NCBI GenBank assembly: GCA_913061265.1
Contig: CAJXVS010000009.1
Location: 62,001 to 126,000 of the forward strand
Length of the DNA stretch: 64,000 nt
Direction: 5' to 3'
Origin: an uncultured Halobacteriovorax sp.
GTDB taxonomy: Bacteria; Bdellovibrionota; Bacteriovoracia; Bacteriovoracales; Bacteriovoracaceae
Shown: in pieces, positions 50,989-60,650 of the stretch
Layout: each line of letters starts with the position of its first letter
How positions within the stretch are numbered: position 1 is the first letter of the stretch
Notes under the pieces: model-generated
Told to the model about the DNA's origin: nothing
Database searches by the model: none
The model's input: only the letters and a program-made list of their open reading frames with translations
Translations under genes and position numbers: made by a program

Positions 50989-53900
50989 TTATCTTGAAAA
51001 TAAGAGTTTTTGACCTTTTCTTACCAAGTATCCAAAAAGAAAAAGAGCAAATATTTCAAGAATTCCTTCAGGCCAAGACTTAGAATTTGATCCATCAGAG
51101 GCCGCTGCTGAACAACCGCCTCCTCCACCGCCGGCTACAGGATTTACATCCACAGGGGCTACAGGAGTCTTAAAGATCGACTTAGGAAGCATGAGTGAAG
51201 GATCTCCTAATAAAAGGATACTATCGATTTGATTGTTATTTAGCCCTGAAGAGACCACTCTCTGGCGAGTGTTCTTAATCACATCTCCAAGCCTTACAGA
51301 CTGATCACCTGAGTCAGCAGTCCTCTCTAATTCTCGGTAAAAGTACTGGGCAAAAACATTCTGATCAGTAGGAGTCAGCATTGTATTGGCAGAGATAACA
51401 CTGATAGCACCGGCTGCATCCTTAAGCAGAAGCTCTTCTCCGAGGCCCTTGTCGGTTGGGTCTGATGAAGCATAGTAATTTGATAAACAGTTAAGGGTTA
51501 ACATTAAAGGAAGCTGGTCATTAGTCATTGAGCTTACATCAGTAGTTTCAAGATAGTTTGTAGAGGTAGAGCCGATAGCGTACTCACTACCATGTCCCAT
51601 AAAATTGACAATAAAGTTATCACTCATTTCACTTTGAAATGTTCCTGCTGCTGAGCTTGAAAGGTTAACAAACCTCTTAGAAAAGCTACTCGCTTCAAGA
51701 GAGTAATTCTCAGAGATCGAATTAAACTCTGCGTAACTATCATCAACGTAGTTAAAAGAGATAGTATTTGAAATACTATCAATCTGATTTCTTTCATAAT
51801 CAATTATCTTTTGAGTGATCGCATTTAGCTCTGCCTCATTGTTCACGGGTAATCGACCAATAGCGAAATCAAAACGGATAGAGCCATCCTTAAGCATCCA
51901 TTGATCAGAAGCATAATCATGATATTTTGAAGAATCCATATAAACAGGACTTCTCTCACTAGTCTGATTTCCTTCGTAATCTCTCGCATCTACTGAGGCA
52001 TCAAGAGCAAATAAGATGTATTTCAACCTATGACTTGGGTAATTATTAACGGCTTTAAAGAAGGCCTTAAAGGCTTCAGGGGACTTTCTTCCAAAGCTGT
52101 AGTGATCATAGATTCTTTTTTCATCAACAAGACTAACCTCTAGTCCCATGTCTCTTTTATGGTTAGCTAAGATCTCAGCTTCATCTTTAAGCTGTGAATT
52201 TGTGATAATGATTAAGTCACTTTCGGCCATTGAATCAAGTAAACTCCCTTCAATAGTTACCCAGCTCAACTGAACAGGACTAAAGAGTTCATTGAGATAG
52301 ACAATATCAAAGCTACTCTCTGAAGAGACAACACCTTGAGTTGTAAAACTAATTTGATTAGCGCTCATTTCAAAGTTCTTATAAAGATAAGAATCCCCCT
52401 GATCTTCATCTTGAAGTAAGAAGAACTCACCTTTTGTATTATCAAAAGGAAGTTCATACCTTGTAGCAAACTCTAAATTCTTTATTCGTTTATTAGTAGT
52501 TGTAGGCTCTGAAGCGTATGAGATATCAAAGCCATTAAAATCTAAGATATAATACTCTGATGGAAGACCAGTAAAAGGCTTGATTGAAAAACAGAGTTCT
52601 TCAGTAGCTGCCGGTGAGAAACTAAAGATATAGTCAGCACTCGTCTCTTGAAGAAGAGGTCCATTTAAAAGGAGGTCTACCTTATTTCCTGTATCAGAGG
52701 AAAAGTAAGCTTCAACCTTAAAGTCTCCAATAATATTAAAGTTACTTCTAGGCGCCGCACTGAGATCAATTTTTAGATCATTCCCTGTAATCCCCTCTAG
52801 ATCGACATTATGACAATAAGTAGAAGCAGCTGGATAAGAAGAGTCCCCAGTCACCAAGTACTTAAACTGCCAGAAATAATGATCCACCCCTGATCCAAGA
52901 GACCTAGAAGTTACAAAGAGGTTTGGGTTATCTTGTTCATAGTTTATCTTTTTATTAAAAGAAACTGTGCCTAGGCTTCCCACGTAGTCGTCATAGACAG
53001 GAATATAGCGAAGCCCTTCAGAGTTTGAATTAATACTTAAAAGAACACTATCAGACATGCTGTATTGAGATTTTTCAAAAGGCGCATAAAAGACAAGGAC
53101 ATCTCCTTGCCCAAAGTACTCATCGTTTTCCTTAATAATATGAAGAGGAAGAGAATTTCCCTTATAGGTTAGTTCAAGCTCTGAATGAGTAATCCCATTA
53201 AAGGGAGAATCTACTCCATTTTGAAAGAGATCATCAAAGCTAACTTTGTAATGACCTTTTTTATTATAGAAAATCCTTGTTCCATTTCTCTCTAAAGAAT
53301 TAAAGAGAACATTAGAGCTTCCCGTAGCAACTTCAGGAGATGCTTCACTATAAGAAATATTAATATAGGTCTCAGTTAGAACTTTAATCGATGAATCGGA
53401 CCCTCTAAAAAGAATCGGATTAACGATAACCTTTATATAATTCTTGCCTTGAATACTTACTGAACTGGTATCCACGGCAACATGGTCAGCTCTTGGATAA
53501 TAGAGGGCCGAAGCATAAGTAGCTGCGTCTGCTGAATAACTTGCGGTTAGATTACCACCAACAAGTGAGTAGCTAGGAGCTGGCACTGGTAAAACATTCT
53601 CATCTCTACTATCTTCTTGTTGAACAACGGCCGTAATATTAGAGGCTAGACTCTCAATAGGAATAAGGATTTCCGTAAACGGAAGAGCTGGCTTATCACT
53701 TACTGATACTTTTACATGAGAAGGGATAGAGAGTTCTTTATACGAAGCATTCCAAGCTGAGTCAGTACTAGTATAGGCCTCAGGCTTAATATGAAGCCTA
53801 AGGTTTCCATCAGGCAGAAGATAGACGTCAGCGCCAGGAGCGACGTTGATAGCATAGTCATTCCTCGCGTTCACAAGATTATCTTCAAAATCGATATTAC

Positions 53901-56900
53901 CTTCGTACTGATTGAGATCATCATTAAAAACAGGAACAGGTCCAAGTAAAGGATCAAGCGAAGCTGAATAAGGCCCGTGCTGAACAAGCTCATCTGAAGT
54001 TGAGATATCTTCAAGCAGATAATGATAGGTCTTCCCTGCTTCGACAGCTGTATCTATAAAACGGTATTCACCAGCAAAGCCAATAGAGAAGATAGAGTTT
54101 AAAACTAATTCGCTATTTATCTTTATATAGCCAGATCCACTGCTATCACTTCTATAAACATTAAAGCCTTTATGTAAGATCTCAGCTGCCGTCTTCCACT
54201 CTAAGACAATGGCATCAGAAAAAGGAGTGATCTGCACTTCGGCCATGGTAATCGGAGAAGCAGAAGGGAGCATGATGATTTCACAAGTAGGTGCATTATG
54301 TTGGCTTTTAATATTACCAAGCTGAGTATAGAAATTTCCATACCATTCATTAAAGGTCATTGTATGCGAGCCTGCTCCACAATTTGTAGGTGCTCTGTAG
54401 GCAAAGTAAGTTCCTGTCGCTGTGTAGTCATTGCCGGGAGCTGCCGGTTCATCAAGAGCAAAATAGGTTGATGTTGCGGGAAAACTTCCTGTCGAGTTAA
54501 AGAGAAATCCTTGTCCGTTAGCTCCGATTGTAGTGTTTGTTAAATGAACTCCATTAAAATTTGATAAAGTAGTTGTACCAAGAACCTGTATTCCATCTTT
54601 ATCGATTCGGTCAATATTGACTCCCGTTAAATCGACGGTTCCAGAGTTTGCTTGAAAAGTAAAAGAGCCCGTTCCAGAAACTGTTCCGATATGAGCTTGA
54701 GCTGTCGTATAGCCTGGGTTAGTTGAGAGACCTGTATCAATAGTTCCGGAAGTTTTTAATGTTCCACCAGAGACCGTTATCGTATTTCCATTTCCAACAT
54801 TTAAGACGCCACCTTGCTTAACTTCAAAGGTTACATTGGAAGGAATATCTAGATCGTCACTAATATCAAAATCAATTCCCGAGTTAAGATTTAATGAGAA
54901 ACTACTTCCCCCTTCAATTTCAATATCATTGGTGGCTATATCAGTAGAGAAGCTAAGAGCCCCTCCTGAAGTTTTAGCCAGCTTTAACAAAGGTATTGCA
55001 GTAGTAGAAGAGAGCACCTGGCTAGTCGTACCGGTATCTCTTAAGGCAAGAGCTCCATCCGTACCCGAAATGGAAGCGGCACCATTTAAAATTACTTGGC
55101 CATAGCCTGCCAATTCAACTGGAGTAACAGAACCATCAATCGTTATTGGCGCTGAAAGGATGATATTTTTACAAGCGGCATTACCAATAGTTCCATCAAT
55201 AACAGGATCATTAGCAAGATTAGTAATTGTACAATCAGAGGTAGAACTTGGGACTCCGTTATCCCAGTTACCAGCTGTGAACCAATCAGTATTAACGGCC
55301 CCAGTCCAATTCGTGGCCGGTGGAGAAGTTGTAACGGTTACTATCTGCCCAGTAGTATATTCACTTGAAGAGTTATAAGCACAAACTCTAAAAGAATATT
55401 GAGTCGATGCTGTCAAAGCAGAGACTTGTTTTGTAATAACATTTCCGGCATTGATTTGAGTTCCACTAGTACAATTTGTAGGTGCTGTTGCCCCCGTTTG
55501 ATAGGCAACTCTAAAGCCAGTAGTGGTACCTCCACCTGAGGTCCAGTCAAGTTTAATGGTAGTAGAATTAAGAGCAACTCCAAGAAGGCCAGAGAGATCA
55601 TTTGCCGCCGCTTCAGCTGGGCTTAAATGAATAACTGCTGAGGCAGATCGTCCTGCTCCTGTATGATTAAAACTCGCCGACTCAGTTTGAGTGGCCGCTG
55701 AAAGAAGCTGACCTGTACCTAAGGTAGATGAGTTTCCGTTTTGGGTATTTCCTAAGGTCCAAGCATTATTAATAGTATAAGTTCCATCGTTGGCCGTCGT
55801 GGCCCCAGCAACTGAGGCACCACCAAGCACGCCACTAATATTAACTCCAATAGGATCAACCCCATCGGAGAAAGTTCCATTCGCATCACTAAATATTGGG
55901 CTTGCTTGATCTACATCTGTAAAAACATTATGAGAGTAATATCGTCTGTTCTGAACACCCTGATCCCAAGTCACGACGAAAGTAGTGCTTGCAGCTGCAA
56001 GGATTTCTGTTTCTTTTAAATACCAAATTTCTACTTTATTAAAATCCGTCGTGCTAAAAGACTTAAGTGAAGACTTAGCATGGGTTAAACTTTGACCACC
56101 ATAAGTGACAGAGATCAAGTCAGCATCAACAGTATCTTCACTTGAGGCAACAAAGATCAACATTCTATTTGATCCCGCATCCATCGTTCTTGTTAGACCT
56201 GTTTGCCAAGTACCAGCGACTGCAACAGTTGGATTAACTCCAGCAGCTCCAGTAGTGCCTGAGTCTGTAAGACCAGTACTATAAACAAAGTTAGCATTGG
56301 CTGAACAGACTCTAAATGAATAGAGAGTACCAGAACTAAGACCATTAACTTGATAAGCGGTGGAGGTACCTACATTAACGGCAGTTCCAGATGAACAATT
56401 AGCCGGAGCAGTTCCTCCTGCTTGATAAGTGACAACATATGAATCAGTTGATCCCCCACCATTAGTCCAGTTAAGAGAAATTTGAGAGTCAGAAACGACC
56501 GTAAGTCCAAGCCCAATGATTTCATTAGGAGCAAGAACGGGAGCATCATCGGTTTGAATTTGAATAACAATACCTGTGCTTAAAGTTCCTTGGGCATTAT
56601 AAGGACACACTCTAATGCCATATTCAGTATCACTCGTAAGACCCGTTATAGAATATACTTCTACGTTAGAGACATCAGTCCCAGCACTACAATCAGCTGG
56701 TGCCATCCCAGCCGCTTGATAAGCTACTCTAAATCCAGTAGTTGTTCCAAGTCCTGAAGTCCAGTCAATATTAATAGTTACATCTGATCTAGAAACCATC
56801 GCCAACCCAACAGGGTCAGTGGCGTTAGCCAGTTTAAAGTGACCACCAACAGTGGATCTATTATCCCCACCGGAGAAAGTCGTGTCGACATTGTCAGTAC

Positions 56901-59433
56901 CTGCAGCACTACTCTCTTTATATGTTGTTACAAAGCCTAGAGCTGTATTTGAGGTGATAATTCCTGTTTCCCAGCCTGCTGTATTGATAGTCGCGACAGA
57001 GTTATTATTTCTTGTCGTAGCGCCAACGATGGAGAGACCACCGACTTCAGTATTTAAAGATAAATTATCAATCGTAGCGTTGACGCCATCATTATTGGTG
57101 TCTGAAAAAAGAGTTGATTGATCTACGTTTGCAAGGACCACACTTGAGTACACCGTATAAGTAGGACCGCCACCAGAGAAAGTGATATCAGCTGATAGAG
57201 GAGCAACAGCAGCACTTATCTCAGATTCACTAAGAGTCCAAATTTCAGTTCTCGCATTATTAAAGTTTCTGTTCACTACTTTAGTCATGGCCTGCCCGCC
57301 AAAATCAACAGAGGCAATGTCAGATCCATTTTCAAAACCAAAGACATAGACAAGAGTTCTATTTTGACCAACTCCAAAGTCAGATCGACTCGCTCCTGTT
57401 TGCCATCCACTCAGAACATGAACATTACTTGAGAGAGAAGCGATTCCTGGAGTTGTAAAAGTTCCTGTTAAACCAGATGAGTAAATGGGTGTTCCGTTAT
57501 AAGCACAGATTCGATAAGAGTATTGAGTCAAAGCACTTAAACTAGTTAACTCATAAGTTGTTCCACCACCCATATCAACTTGAGTATCAGAGGTGCAATC
57601 AACTGGAGCAGTGGCCCCCGTAGTAAAGGCAAGCCTATGTCCAATTGTTCCTCCGCCTCCAGAGACGAGAGAAAAACTAACGGAATCAGGACCATTGATA
57701 GTTAAGTCAACACCAAGAGGATCATTCGGAGGATCAGGAGCGATGGCATCAGTGGTAGCACTTACGAAGGCTCCGTTTGTATAATTAGCTCCTGAATTTG
57801 CACAGACTCTAAAAGAGTATTCTGTTCCAGCGCTAAGACCTGTTACTTGATAAGTTCCAACAGCTCCAGCATTTACAATAGTTCCAAGTTCACAACTTCC
57901 TGGCGCCGTAGCCCCCGCTTGATAAGTCACATAGTAAGTTGGAACAGAAGCTTTCTTCGTCCAAGTTAAATTAACTGAAGTATCTGATGAAGACACTGCC
58001 GTCAGCCCAGTAACAACAGGAAGTACATTTGATCTAAAATGAGCCACAGCTAAAGGCATCCTAAAACTATTCGAATGATTTATAGAAACTGTCTTTGAAT
58101 CCTGATCAGCTCCTTCAATCTCAACGGCCACGGCCTGTGAAGTTGAATTTCCTGATTCATTTACAACGATAGAGAGGTTTGATCCCCAAGTACCAGTGTT
58201 ACCATTTTGAGAAGAGAGAATGGTAAGTCCATCTTGAGCCACAGGAAGTGTTGTCTCTAAGTCAGGAAGTCCCGATTGACCATCATCAGCAGTTGCTGTT
58301 GAAAAGAGAGTGTTGACCTGATCTATTCCTGTATAAACAGCTGAGGCCACATCCGTATGATCGGGAGCCCCGCCAGAAGTGTTCACTGTAATGGTTGTAT
58401 TTGCGGCAGCCGTAATTCCTGCATCTAATAAATAATAAATTCCCGTTTCTGCTTCAAAAGAAGTTCCTGTATCTACCCTTACCGCTTCAGTCAATGTCTG
58501 ACCGCCGTAAGTGACAGAGGTGATATTATTAGTCGTAAGATTATCTTCAAAACCTACCGCTACAATAAGAAGCCTATCGGTTCCAGAGGGTGCAGTAACT
58601 GTTTTAGTCGTTCCAGAAGTCCAATCATCTGCAGGAGTAATGGCCTCGCGCCATTTATTTAAGAGGTAGTTCTTAACCTGAGTTCTTTCAGTATCAGTAA
58701 GTCTTCTGTCATAAATGATAACTTCTGCAGCGTTGATCTGTTGATACTGAGTTCCATAAGCACCAATTTGAAAGTCTTGAGTTCCCCAGTCAATATAATC
58801 AGCTACAGCATCAGAACCAACAAGGGCCCCATCTCGGTAGATGGCCTGATAGTTAGGCGCTCCGTCATCGTTGATAAAGTTCCATGTATGCAAAAAGGAT
58901 GAACTTCCTCCCCAAGGTGCTTGAATACGAGAGGTCCCACAACAAACGCCTACATCAAAATAGACATTGTTATTACTCCAAGGAAAGTGAGTACCAAAAC
59001 GTCGTCCACCTGTAACAGAACCAAAGGCCCAGCCATTAGAAATAGTTCTTGTTCTCGCGACAAAGAAAACTTCCGTCTCAGAGATCCTATCGCCATTTTG
59101 AAAGACGGCACCGCCACCACTTGATCCATCAATATCCATTCGATCAGAAGTAAACTCAATAGCATCAAGCCCACCGTCGTCAACCCATAGAGGGGTTCCT
59201 GAAGCTTGAATAGCATCGTTTCCATTTCCAGATTTATCGGCCCAACAACGAACACTGTCTCCGTGAGCAGAAACTTCATTTCCACCCGTACAACCCGTAT
59301 CAGTGAAGACTGTTTCTGTATCACTAGCATCAAGCCAAAGACGAAGACCAGAATCAATACCAGCAGGCCCTGCTGCAAAAGCAAGGTTTGCAAATAATAC
59401 GCTGATGAATAGAAAAGTCTTTTTACCAATCAA
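50989..59433 (-). CDS. Giant C25 (gingipain-like) peptidase with LamG and FN3 domains
   Basis: 2814 residues, paralogue of the downstream giant gene. Signal peptide (ANLAFA). Order: LamG-like lectin fold (about 25-260), then five FN3 domains interleaved with three copies of a ~200-residue module marked by [SV]xxYGGQxLT, an NW module matching that of the paralogue, an FN3-like domain (LEWKTAAEILHKGFNVYRSD) and the C25 domain. Catalytic residues: GHGSEY (His 2614) and LTLNCLSNYY (Cys 2649). The last 51 residues repeat the Gly-run, Cys-Ser, hydrophobic helix, basic tail. The LamG/FN3 part suggests carbohydrate or protein binding; the target is unknown. TTG start with CGGAGA 8 nt upstream. The ~1000-residue C-terminal half is shared with the paralogue. 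Confidence 0.9.
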   Translation of the reverse strand: MIGKKTFLFISVLFANLAFAAGPAGIDSGLRLWLDASDTETVFTDTGCTGGNEVSAHGDSVRCWADKSGNGNDAIQASGTPLWVDDGGLDAIEFTSDRMDIDGSSGGGAVFQNGDRISETEVFFVARTRTISNGWAFGSVTGGRRFGTHFPWSNNNVYFDVGVCCGTSRIQAPWGGSSSFLHTWNFINDDGAPNYQAIYRDGALVGSDAVADYIDWGTQDFQIGAYGTQYQQINAAEVIIYDRRLTDTERTQVKNYLLNKWREAITPADDWTSGTTKTVTAPSGTDRLLIVAVGFEDNLTTNNITSVTYGGQTLTEAVRVDTGTSFEAETGIYYLLDAGITAAANTTITVNTSGGAPDHTDVASAVYTGIDQVNTLFSTATADDGQSGLPDLETTLPVAQDGLTILSSQNGNTGTWGSNLSIVVNESGNSTSQAVAVEIEGADQDSKTVSINHSNSFRMPLAVAHFRSNVLPVVTGLTAVSSSDTSVNLTWTKKASVPTYYVTYQAGATAPGSCELGTIVNAGAVGTYQVTGLSAGTEYSFRVCANSGANYTNGAFVSATTDAIAPDPPNDPLGVDLTINGPDSVSFSLVSGGGGTIGHRLAFTTGATAPVDCTSDTQVDMGGGTTYELTSLSALTQYSYRICAYNGTPIYSSGLTGTFTTPGIASLSSNVHVLSGWQTGASRSDFGVGQNRTLVYVFGFENGSDIASVDFGGQAMTKVVNRNFNNARTEIWTLSESEISAAVAPLSADITFSGGGPTYTVYSSVVLANVDQSTLFSDTNNDGVNATIDNLSLNTEVGGLSIVGATTRNNNSVATINTAGWETGIITSNTALGFVTTYKESSAAGTDNVDTTFSGGDNRSTVGGHFKLANATDPVGLAMVSRSDVTINIDWTSGLGTTTGFRVAYQAAGMAPADCSAGTDVSNVEVYSITGLTSDTEYGIRVCPYNAQGTLSTGIVIQIQTDDAPVLAPNEIIGLGLTVVSDSQISLNWTNGGGSTDSYVVTYQAGGTAPANCSSGTAVNVGTSTAYQVNGLSSGTLYSFRVCSANANFVYSTGLTDSGTTGAAGVNPTVAVAGTWQTGLTRTMDAGSNRMLIFVASSEDTVDADLISVTYGGQSLTHAKSSLKSFSTTDFNKVEIWYLKETEILAAASTTFVVTWDQGVQNRRYYSHNVFTDVDQASPIFSDANGTFSDGVDPIGVNISGVLGGASVAGATTANDGTYTINNAWTLGNTQNGNSSTLGTGQLLSAATQTESASFNHTGAGRSASAVIHLSPAEAAANDLSGLLGVALNSTTIKLDWTSGGGTTTGFRVAYQTGATAPTNCTSGTQINAGNVITKQVSALTASTQYSFRVCAYNSSSEYTTGQIVTVTTSPPATNWTGAVNTDWFTAGNWDNGVPSSTSDCTITNLANDPVIDGTIGNAACKNIILSAPITIDGSVTPVELAGYGQVILNGAASISGTDGALALRDTGTTSQVLSSTTAIPLLKLAKTSGGALSFSTDIATNDIEIEGGSSFSLNLNSGIDFDISDDLDIPSNVTFEVKQGGVLNVGNGNTITVSGGTLKTSGTIDTGLSTNPGYTTAQAHIGTVSGTGSFTFQANSGTVDLTGVNIDRIDKDGIQVLGTTTLSNFNGVHLTNTTIGANGQGFLFNSTGSFPATSTYFALDEPAAPGNDYTATGTYFAYRAPTNCGAGSHTMTFNEWYGNFYTQLGNIKSQHNAPTCEIIMLPSASPITMAEVQITPFSDAIVLEWKTAAEILHKGFNVYRSDSSGSGYIKINSELVLNSIFSIGFAGEYRFIDTAVEAGKTYHYLLEDISTSDELVQHGPYSASLDPLLGPVPVFNDDLNQYEGNIDFEDNLVNARNDYAINVAPGADVYLLPDGNLRLHIKPEAYTSTDSAWNASYKELSIPSHVKVSVSDKPALPFTEILIPIESLASNITAVVQQEDSRDENVLPVPAPSYSLVGGNLTASYSADAATYASALYYPRADHVAVDTSSVSIQGKNYIKVIVNPILFRGSDSSIKVLTETYINISYSEASPEVATGSSNVLFNSLERNGTRIFYNKKGHYKVSFDDLFQNGVDSPFNGITHSELELTYKGNSLPLHIIKENDEYFGQGDVLVFYAPFEKSQYSMSDSVLLSINSNSEGLRYIPVYDDYVGSLGTVSFNKKINYEQDNPNLFVTSRSLGSGVDHYFWQFKYLVTGDSSYPAASTYCHNVDLEGITGNDLKIDLSAAPRSNFNIIGDFKVEAYFSSDTGNKVDLLLNGPLLQETSADYIFSFSPAATEELCFSIKPFTGLPSEYYILDFNGFDISYASEPTTTNKRIKNLEFATRYELPFDNTKGEFFLLQDEDQGDSYLYKNFEMSANQISFTTQGVVSSESSFDIVYLNELFSPVQLSWVTIEGSLLDSMAESDLIIITNSQLKDEAEILANHKRDMGLEVSLVDEKRIYDHYSFGRKSPEAFKAFFKAVNNYPSHRLKYILFALDASVDARDYEGNQTSERSPVYMDSSKYHDYASDQWMLKDGSIRFDFAIGRLPVNNEAELNAITQKIIDYERNQIDSISNTISFNYVDDSYAEFNSISENYSLEASSFSKRFVNLSSSAAGTFQSEMSDNFIVNFMGHGSEYAIGSTSTNYLETTDVSSMTNDQLPLMLTLNCLSNYYASSDPTDKGLGEELLLKDAAGAISVISANTMLTPTDQNVFAQYFYRELERTADSGDQSVRLGDVIKNTRQRVVSSGLNNNQIDSILLLGDPSLMLPKSIFKTPVAPVDVNPVAGGGGGGCSAAASDGSNSKSWPEGILEIFALFLFGYLVRKGQKLLFSR

Positions 59434-59630: not shown

Positions 59631-59658
59631 GCAAAAAAAAGAGGGCATAGGCCCTCTT
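59631..59658 (-). terminator. Intrinsic terminator of the minus-strand phosphatase gene
   Basis: Stem AAGAGGGC / GCCCTCTT with loop ATAG, followed on the minus strand by eight T. It ends the transcript of the secreted phosphatase gene to its right. The duplicated 3'-end element lies between that gene's stop and this terminator. Confidence 0.85.
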
Positions 59659-59689: not shown

Positions 59690-59722
59690 CTAGTTAATTT
59701 TAAAAACAACTTCCATCGCCTT
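59690..59722 (-). repeat. Displaced second copy of the phosphatase gene 3' end
   Basis: 33 bp matching 59799-59831 at 31 of 33 positions. On the minus strand it encodes KAMEVVFKIN-stop, while the gene itself ends KAMEVVFKVN-stop. The two copies start 109 bp apart. This is a gene-end remnant or target duplication, not a coding gene. Confidence 0.8.
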
Positions 59723-59798
59723 TTGGAGGCGGCATCGGCAGGACAGCCGATGAAGCCGAACAACGCAGAGAGGTCCACGATGGACCGAACAGTGAAGC
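59723..59798. mobile_element. GC-rich hairpin-rich insert between the two 3'-end copies
   Basis: 76 bp, clearly more GC-rich than its neighbours. Three hairpins: CGCC/GGCG (59717-59731, reaching into the left copy), CATCGGC-AGGACA-GCCGATG (59733-59752) and GGTCCA-CGA-TGGACC (59772-59786). GCCGAACA and ACCGAACA occur as near-repeats. It is flanked by the 33-bp direct copies, like a small insertion with target duplication, but no transposase or known element is recognised. Confidence 0.45.
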
Positions 59799-60650
59799 CT
59801 AGTTCACTTTAAAAACAACTTCCATCGCCTTGTGATCAGCACCCTCAAGTTCACCCCAGACAGCCTCACTCTTAAGTTCAAGCCCACGGTAAAAAACATA
59901 ATCAAGAGGAAAACCAAACTTCATCATACGTTGATCATTTTTAAACTTAACTTCTTTTAGATTATTTCTAACGGCCATCATGCGAACAAAGTTAAATTTC
60001 CCAGGAGACCAAGTATTAAAATCCCCGGCGAAAACAACTGGTCCATCATAAGTTTTCATAACTTCTTCAACATCTTTGATCTGTCTTGCGAGACCTTCAG
60101 TTGAGACAAAATTAATGGCGTGAATATTAATCGTGAGAAGATCTTTATCACTTCCCGCTATTGGGTAAGTTGTAAAAAGAACCATCTTTGGGGTATTGAT
60201 CACTGGCTCGCGAACAACTGATTGTTGATAAAAAAGACTGCTCGCCTTTATCTTTGAAGCTGAAGTTACACCTGTTCTGATCTGCCCTTTTCTATAGATA
60301 AAAGAAGTGGCTAAATGGTATTCATGATCAGAATCTTCTTCAAACGAACTCATCATTTTTTCATCTAAATACATCTCTTGAAGAAGAAGAATGTCTCTTT
60401 CTTCTGCTAAAAATTTAAAGTCTTTTTTCCAAGATTCGTTTTGGCCCTTGTACATATTCCAAACAAGAATCTTTATATTATCAGGGTCAAGCTTAGATCT
60501 ATTAGGCTCACCAATAGTTGTCATAATATCTTTATGTTTTGGTACAAAGATATTGAGGCTATCCCAAATGTCTCCACCAAAGTTTTGCGCCATAGAAGCT
60601 TGACTAAAAAGTGTAGCTACCAAAATAGCTAAAATATTTTTCTTGAACAT
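59799..60650 (-). CDS. Secreted endonuclease/exonuclease/phosphatase family protein
   Basis: 283 residues. Signal peptide (SQASMA). EEP-fold motifs: ILVWNMYKG (Asn), ILLLQEMYLD (catalytic Glu), NIHAINF, VVFAGDFNTWS (Asp/Asn), PLDYVFY and ADHKAMEV (Asp-His). All the usual catalytic residues are visible, so it should be an active phosphodiesterase: a nuclease, or a lipid/sphingomyelinase-type enzyme. It is divergent from a 281-residue paralogue. SD AAGGAAAC. The end of the gene is duplicated 109 bp downstream. Confidence 0.9.
   Translation of the reverse strand: MFKKNILAILVATLFSQASMAQNFGGDIWDSLNIFVPKHKDIMTTIGEPNRSKLDPDNIKILVWNMYKGQNESWKKDFKFLAEERDILLLQEMYLDEKMMSSFEEDSDHEYHLATSFIYRKGQIRTGVTSASKIKASSLFYQQSVVREPVINTPKMVLFTTYPIAGSDKDLLTINIHAINFVSTEGLARQIKDVEEVMKTYDGPVVFAGDFNTWSPGKFNFVRMMAVRNNLKEVKFKNDQRMMKFGFPLDYVFYRGLELKSEAVWGELEGADHKAMEVVFKVN

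Follow-up and report, generated by a model that had tools for sequence, protein, structure and literature searches.

A short, folded and probably mobile element of Bacteriovoracaceae at a duplicated gene end

The window, a 64,000-nt stretch of DNA from an uncultured Halobacteriovorax sp., carries at the 3′ end of a phosphatase gene an insert that is very probably a copy of a short (core of ~75 nt), non-autonomous mobile family of Bacteriovoracaceae, mobilised in trans and targeting the 3′ ends of transcripts. This reading is built on sequence comparisons of the window locus, its orthologs and the other copies of the family.

The window locus and its empty counterparts

The features of the locus are listed below with their window coordinates.

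59799 to 60650, minus strand: host gene, 283 aa, Endonuclease/Exonuclease/phosphatase family (PF03372), from the open reading frame (ORF) and a domain match.
59799 to 59831, minus strand: proximal repeat, the regenerated 3′ end that now terminates the gene, from the ORF end, the repeat alignment and comparison with orthologs.
59690 to 59722, minus strand: distal repeat, the original 3′ end of the phosphatase gene, pushed away by the insertion and still attached to native downstream DNA, from the repeat alignment and the order in genomes G001 and G002.
59723 to 59798: inserted stretch as delimited by the repeats, 76 bases.
59720 to 59794, plus strand: element core of two adjacent hairpins, from the covariance model R2 (74.7 bits), blastn matches restricted to the core and absence from the orthologous loci.
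59723 to 59763, plus strand: hairpin 1, with a TTG/CAA outer stem, a purine internal loop (GA / GAA), a GC-rich stem and an AGGACA loop, from folds and from 13 pairs, 10 of them compensatory, over 41 copies.
59764 to 59794, plus strand: hairpin 2, with a CGC/GTG outer stem abutting hairpin 1 and an inner stem GGTCC/GGACC, from folds and outer-stem variants in other copies.
59631 to 59658, minus strand: intrinsic terminator native to the host gene (GAGGGC..GCCCTC, then a T-run), retained 3′ of the displaced end, from the inverted repeat here and from an equivalent hairpin and TTTTTTTTGCACTT in G001 and G002.

According to the initial annotation, the last 33 bp of the phosphatase gene are doubled at a spacing of 109 bp, with 31 of 33 positions identical and both stop codons in frame. 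Alignment and the ORF bore this out: the TAG stop (CTA on the plus strand) is present in both copies in frame with the minus-strand gene, and lengthening the repeat ungapped to 36 nt leaves 33 of 36 positions identical (92%). Since the open frame starting at 60650 stops at 59799, the gene now uses the proximal copy. The 76 bases in between had been described as GC rich with three hairpins. Two of these lie within the core, which is 60% G+C, but the third (GTGAA..TTCAC) spans the junction with the second repeat and falls outside it. When upstream and downstream flanks were compared for 70 copies of the family, the window locus obtained a repeat score of 24, against a median of 9, a 95th percentile of 11 and a maximum of 31 in 60 random flank pairings, this maximum arising because the flank pool includes repeats common to several copies. 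An open frame of 2814 aa (50989 to 59433, minus strand), secretion-like at its start, takes up much of this end of the window.

The same divergent gene pair is present in G001 and G002, the two other genomes of the genus searched, and the insert is absent from both, as it is from a more distant syntenic pair (G021). The orthologs in G001 and G002 end only once, approximately 26 to 28 nt ahead of a terminator resembling that at 59631 to 59658. Because the distal repeat adjoins the native downstream sequence, it corresponds to the old gene end and the proximal repeat to the new one. Judging from these loci, the window insertion is recent and the 33-bp duplication arrived with it, in agreement with the earlier proposal that insertion of a small structured element had duplicated, and so restored, the gene end.

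Two other insertion sites gave a similar picture. Between rpmA and obgE, the element is absent from all 19 other genomes printed (36 genomes searched, 30 loci fetched), and between rplS and rnhB the site is empty in all 14 other genomes located, including a species of the same genus with a 94% identical protein (17 loci were supplied, 2 of which were not located by the script). At both sites, the terminator exists in relatives without the element. Occupied and empty orthologous sites, the pattern that defines a mobile element, were thus found at three sites (window, rpmA/obgE and rplS/rnhB), in a comparison where many genomes are fragmented drafts. These sites show copies that were acquired lineage by lineage where relatives have just the gene and its terminator.

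Distribution and fold of the family

The initial annotation had suspected a dispersed family of structured elements, and this proved right. A blastn search with the core plus its flanks returned matches in other genomes that cover the core alone, and covariance searches found several copies per genome. Three are present in this genome, i.e., in the window, behind rpmA (G000:C4) and behind a gene for a lysine-rich protein (G000:C7). The opposite outcome, a core unique in the genome and located at the same position in all relatives, did not occur. At E up to 0.1, the model R2, built from seven copies gathered by sequence similarity alone, matched 57 times in 11 of 59 relatives; across the 129 genomes of the GTDB family Bacteriovoracaceae, it gave 77 matches spread over 21 genomes (E up to 0.01). 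After retraining on 47 copies, the model (R3) had hits in 26 of the phylum's 368 genomes, at 1 to 11 matches per carrier, and a single weak match (E 0.0024) fell outside the family. With a strict pattern scan, five loci were retrieved from a genome collection of 84,980 species, all titled Bacteriovoracaceae, Bacteriovoracia, Bdellovibrionota or Halobacteriovorax, and none from viral contigs. In these searches, the ~75-nt element was almost confined to Bacteriovoracaceae, a family of predatory-type bacteria.

Permissive Rfam scans, run on the window locus plus 10 further loci, yielded nothing over the core at the gathering score. The subthreshold hits (DapZ, snR75, SCARNA7, rli31, rnk_leader, Atu_C8, and Histone3) lay beside the core or touched its edge or the terminator, far under the cutoffs, and were rejected. 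The family is not described in the accessible parts of the literature searched, which include PMC3733652, PMC2817692, PMC10190682, and PMC6006769 and lie largely outside subscription journals.

Six copies folded singly all yielded two abutting hairpins with a common layout, TTG-[GA]-stem-loop-stem-[GAA]-CAA, followed directly by CGC-A-stem with a GA/GA internal loop-A-GTG. On a MAFFT alignment of 41 copies that was not fitted to the model, RNAalifold recovered hairpin 1 with 13 pairs, 10 of which show compensatory change; 96.5% of the alignment cells were paired versus 76.6% after shuffling, and the covariation score was 0.519 versus 0.155 for shuffled and at most 0.138 for slid alignments, all on copies whose collection by a structure-aware model biases them toward structure. 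Hairpin 2 was not recovered by RNAalifold on this alignment, and by itself its stability exceeds that of shuffles (z below -2) in just 13 of 41 copies. Its outer stem does covary across copies (CGC/GTG, CGC/GCG, CTC/GAG, CCC/GGG, and TTC/GAA). The support for hairpin 2 is weaker than that for hairpin 1 and comes from its recurring shape and these outer-stem changes. Among 65 rows, 70 G-U cells were counted against 36 A-C cells in an alignment fitted to the model, a wobble asymmetry that favours the plus-strand fold only modestly.

Copies resemble each other most within genomes. For 25 of 57 copies, against 3.0 expected, the nearest neighbour came from the copy's own genome, and the excess of within-genome identity was equalled in 0 of 2,000 permutations; this set leaves out G032 and two duplicated segments.

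Insertion sites and gene-end duplications

Dropping near-duplicates reduced the 77 matches to 74 distinct copies, 71 of which have at least 60 nt of upstream sequence. The hairpin immediately upstream was better than 98% of shuffles in 47 of these 71 copies, and by a fixed score 43 of 71 lie directly 3′ of an intrinsic terminator, compared to 5 of 162 TTTTTG and 1 of 32 TTTTTGG control sites (window and ten loci); the 71 include secondary array copies, for which a preceding terminator is not expected. The T-run of the terminator contributes the first bases of the outer stem of the element, and in the copies preceded by a terminator the element has a fixed orientation with respect to that terminator. 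The window copy departs from this pattern, with no terminator upstream and an orientation antisense to its gene.

In 31 copies, the distance to an ORF stop is at most 65 nt. According to profile matches, the upstream genes encode ribosomal proteins L27, L19, L20, S21, and S1 (twice), HU (three), porin or outer-membrane barrel proteins (three), NrdA (twice), and flagellin, and another was read from its sequence as a probable EF-Tu gene. Nine further copies lie 40 to 80 nt 3′ of a tRNA or tmRNA gene. Genes that are usually at the top of transcription precede 25 of these 40 copies, a raw count set only against the general share of such genes, a few percent of a genome. The remaining 15 follow genes without a family match, unscanned genes, or ordinary enzymes.

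Such positions raise the question of a functional RNA or DNA module, selected behind highly expressed genes for terminator reinforcement, insulation, or protein titration instead of being selfish. Together with the conserved fold, the location behind terminators of ribosomal protein, HU, porin, tRNA, and tmRNA genes speaks for such a module, as do hairpin loops that frequently read CAGGAWG, which we take to resemble CsrB repeats. We nonetheless judge it improbable, since presence at any single gene is sporadic and an element located 3′ of the T-run would be transcribed only by read-through. GGA occurs in only 37 of 65 loops of one hairpin and 27 of 65 of the other, which is not conservation and also led us to reject a CsrA/RsmA-binding RNA (sponge).

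Insertion of a mobile element remains our preferred reading. The initial annotation had expected each copy to lie next to a short duplication, which did not hold: a direct-repeat scan of 70 copies revealed no constant target duplication, clean long ones were found in only four, and most copies sit unduplicated in a terminator T-run. The four are the window (33 bp), a tmRNA in G002 (19/19), a tRNA-Met in G096 (21/21), and an imperfect case in G140 (33/47); other high flank-repeat scores correspond to array units or repeats of another kind. At the G096 tRNA-Met end, three repeat copies surround two inserts, and the inserts at this gene and at the G002 tmRNA additionally contain a terminator and linker. 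No such duplication is seen in 7 of the 9 copies behind RNA genes. The likeness to an attachment site at a gene 3′ end, also put forward earlier, thus has parallels in the exact 19-bp tmRNA and 21-bp tRNA-Met 3′-end copies flanking other copies of the element, but does not extend to the majority of copies, which lack a duplication.

The duplicated ends might instead be scars of ordinary tyrosine-recombinase integration at gene 3′ ends, with the core as a passenger. The repeat ends do coincide exactly with CCA or with the stop codon, as such integration would produce. In addition, tmRNA 3′ ends in the family have a different downstream sequence in nearly every genome (L198 to L216), which suggests that the tmRNA 3′ end is a general integration hotspot here, and ordinary integrases may for this reason have contributed to the tmRNA and tRNA repeats. 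As an account of the family, we find this explanation very unlikely: the window insert is just 76 bp and made up of the core, and the terminator-adjacent copies show no such repeats. Separately, the element locus behind the G002 tmRNA (L070, G002:C242) is near-identical to one in G111 (L079, G111:C209), a genome assigned to a different genus, which may reflect either contamination or recent transfer.

Candidate mobilisation routes and related systems

The enzyme that mobilises the element was not found among the Y1 transposases and RVT_1 matches. Y1 transposases are encoded in 23 of 36 genomes, including element-free ones, and none lies within 30 kb of any copy by match coordinates. One candidate is a REP-like or IS200/IS605-like element that a Y1 (HUH) transposase such as a RAYT moves as single-stranded DNA. 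It would be compatible with a left-end hairpin beside a T-rich target, the plus-strand fold, the within-genome subfamilies, and the Y1 genes detected in 6 of 9 element-carrying genomes scanned. We nevertheless consider this route unlikely, as a GT[AG]G foot occurs in only 1 of 41 copies, a search of 12 Y1 loci with R2 gave no match (best E 1.5), and the Y1 genes inspected are flanked by other inverted repeats. Moreover, Y1 (HUH) transposition is not known to produce a target duplication. The inspected genes (L089, L092, and L103) are RAYT-like, their flanking inverted repeats are unrelated to GTAG REPs, and they are comparable to the TIRYT genes described in the accessible part of PMC3733652.

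We also considered a SINE-like retroposon, whose RNA would be reverse transcribed at a nick by a reverse transcriptase acting in trans, leaving target duplications of variable length, a right end that stays constant, and copies truncated on the left. Duplications of 19, 21, 33, and 47 bp are in line with it, as are copies behind usually highly expressed genes, i.e., at the ends of abundant RNAs. In G032 (L054, L055, L056, L019, and L127), the core lies within a ~190-nt repeat whose right end (CAACTAAG) is near-constant in 8 stretches of the loci fetched, 3 or 4 of which are truncated leftward at different points, the pattern expected of copying from a fixed end. Neither feature is general, the constant 3′ end with variable 5′ truncation being seen in G032 and the variable duplications in four copies. 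The majority of copies have no target duplication at all. A partial copy in G011 is cut at hairpin loops on both sides, RVT_1 had no match in this genome, and it was detected in only 3 of 11 element-carrying genomes among the 59 relatives. A retroposon of this kind accordingly seems improbable to us.

With Y1 genes neither adjacent to the copies nor restricted to carriers, and a reverse transcriptase absent here, we therefore favour a structured element mobilised in trans, for which HUH-like single-stranded DNA and RNA-templated chemistries compete. In the mechanism that we propose, the folded strand (single-stranded DNA or RNA) would be recognised by a trans-acting factor, which would join it to the 3′ side of a hairpin and T-run where heavily transcribed units end. 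Alternatively, it could be joined within a gene end, at a site that is staggered or copied, which would yield the duplications of 19 to 47 bp, and at coding or RNA 3′ ends insertions would survive only where the duplication restored that end. A more specific version, to which we give little credence, is that the element targets the 3′ ends of abundant transcripts, i.e., either the mature tRNA/tmRNA end or, at genes for ribosomal proteins, HU, porin, and flagellin, the terminator hairpin with its U/T-run, possibly in an RNA-templated or transcription-coupled manner. If true, such a transcript-end-targeting element would be a bacterial counterpart of SINEs.

Several known systems share features with the element. 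REPs and their RAYTs (REPtron) are, in the accessible parts of PMC3733652 and PMC2817692, short, intergenic, and folded, with genome-specific subfamilies often located at gene 3′ ends. The present element resembles them in each of these respects but differs in lacking the foot, in having two abutting hairpins in fixed order, in its low number of matches per carrier (usually more than 100 for REPs), in its location in terminator T-runs, and in being unlinked to Y1 genes. Group IIC introns insert beside a DNA stem-loop, according to the accessible part of PMC10190682. Insertion next to a stem-loop is common to our element as well. The stem-loops targeted by group IIC introns are often intrinsic terminators. 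A group II intron was rejected, given a length of 75 nt, no Rfam group II match (no ribozyme core), and the RVT_1 result in this genome. MITEs are likewise short non-autonomous repeats dependent on a trans-acting enzyme, but the fold of two separate hairpins, a core on which no terminal inverted repeats were seen, and the lack of a constant short duplication speak against this class. Elements integrating at tRNA/tmRNA 3′ ends also duplicate and restore a gene 3′ end; the present element differs in being far too small for a recombinase gene, mostly unduplicated, and often behind protein genes. Finally, integron attC sites are folded recombination sites behind genes, and this candidate was dismissed because RYYYAAC and GTTRRRY cores 50 to 150 nt apart occur in 0 of 41 copies (shuffled mean, 0.1).

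Small folded repeats are common in bacteria. To our knowledge, group IIC introns are the main known case of an orientation-specific preference for intrinsic-terminator T-runs, and large integrative elements the main known case of a duplication regenerating a gene end. Combining both in 75 nt, together with rich covariation and clean empty sites, this family offers a compact system to address how a non-coding element locates the ends of transcripts and by which enzyme it is moved. For annotation of this clade, it is also a caution that terminators and the 3′ ends of genes can be mosaics of recent origin.

Arrays and mosaics were observed at a few loci. The start of a G031 contig (L128, G031:C54, positions 1 to 156) is a tandem array of element hairpins with a 79-bp unit, 2.0 copies of which are visible, and the array has probably collapsed in assembly. 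Another contig of the same genome (L032) terminates in an element behind an HU gene. In G014 (L052, G014:C61, positions 400 to 1250), tuf and tRNA-Trp are followed by a mosaic in which fragments of tRNA ends alternate with degenerate element copies.
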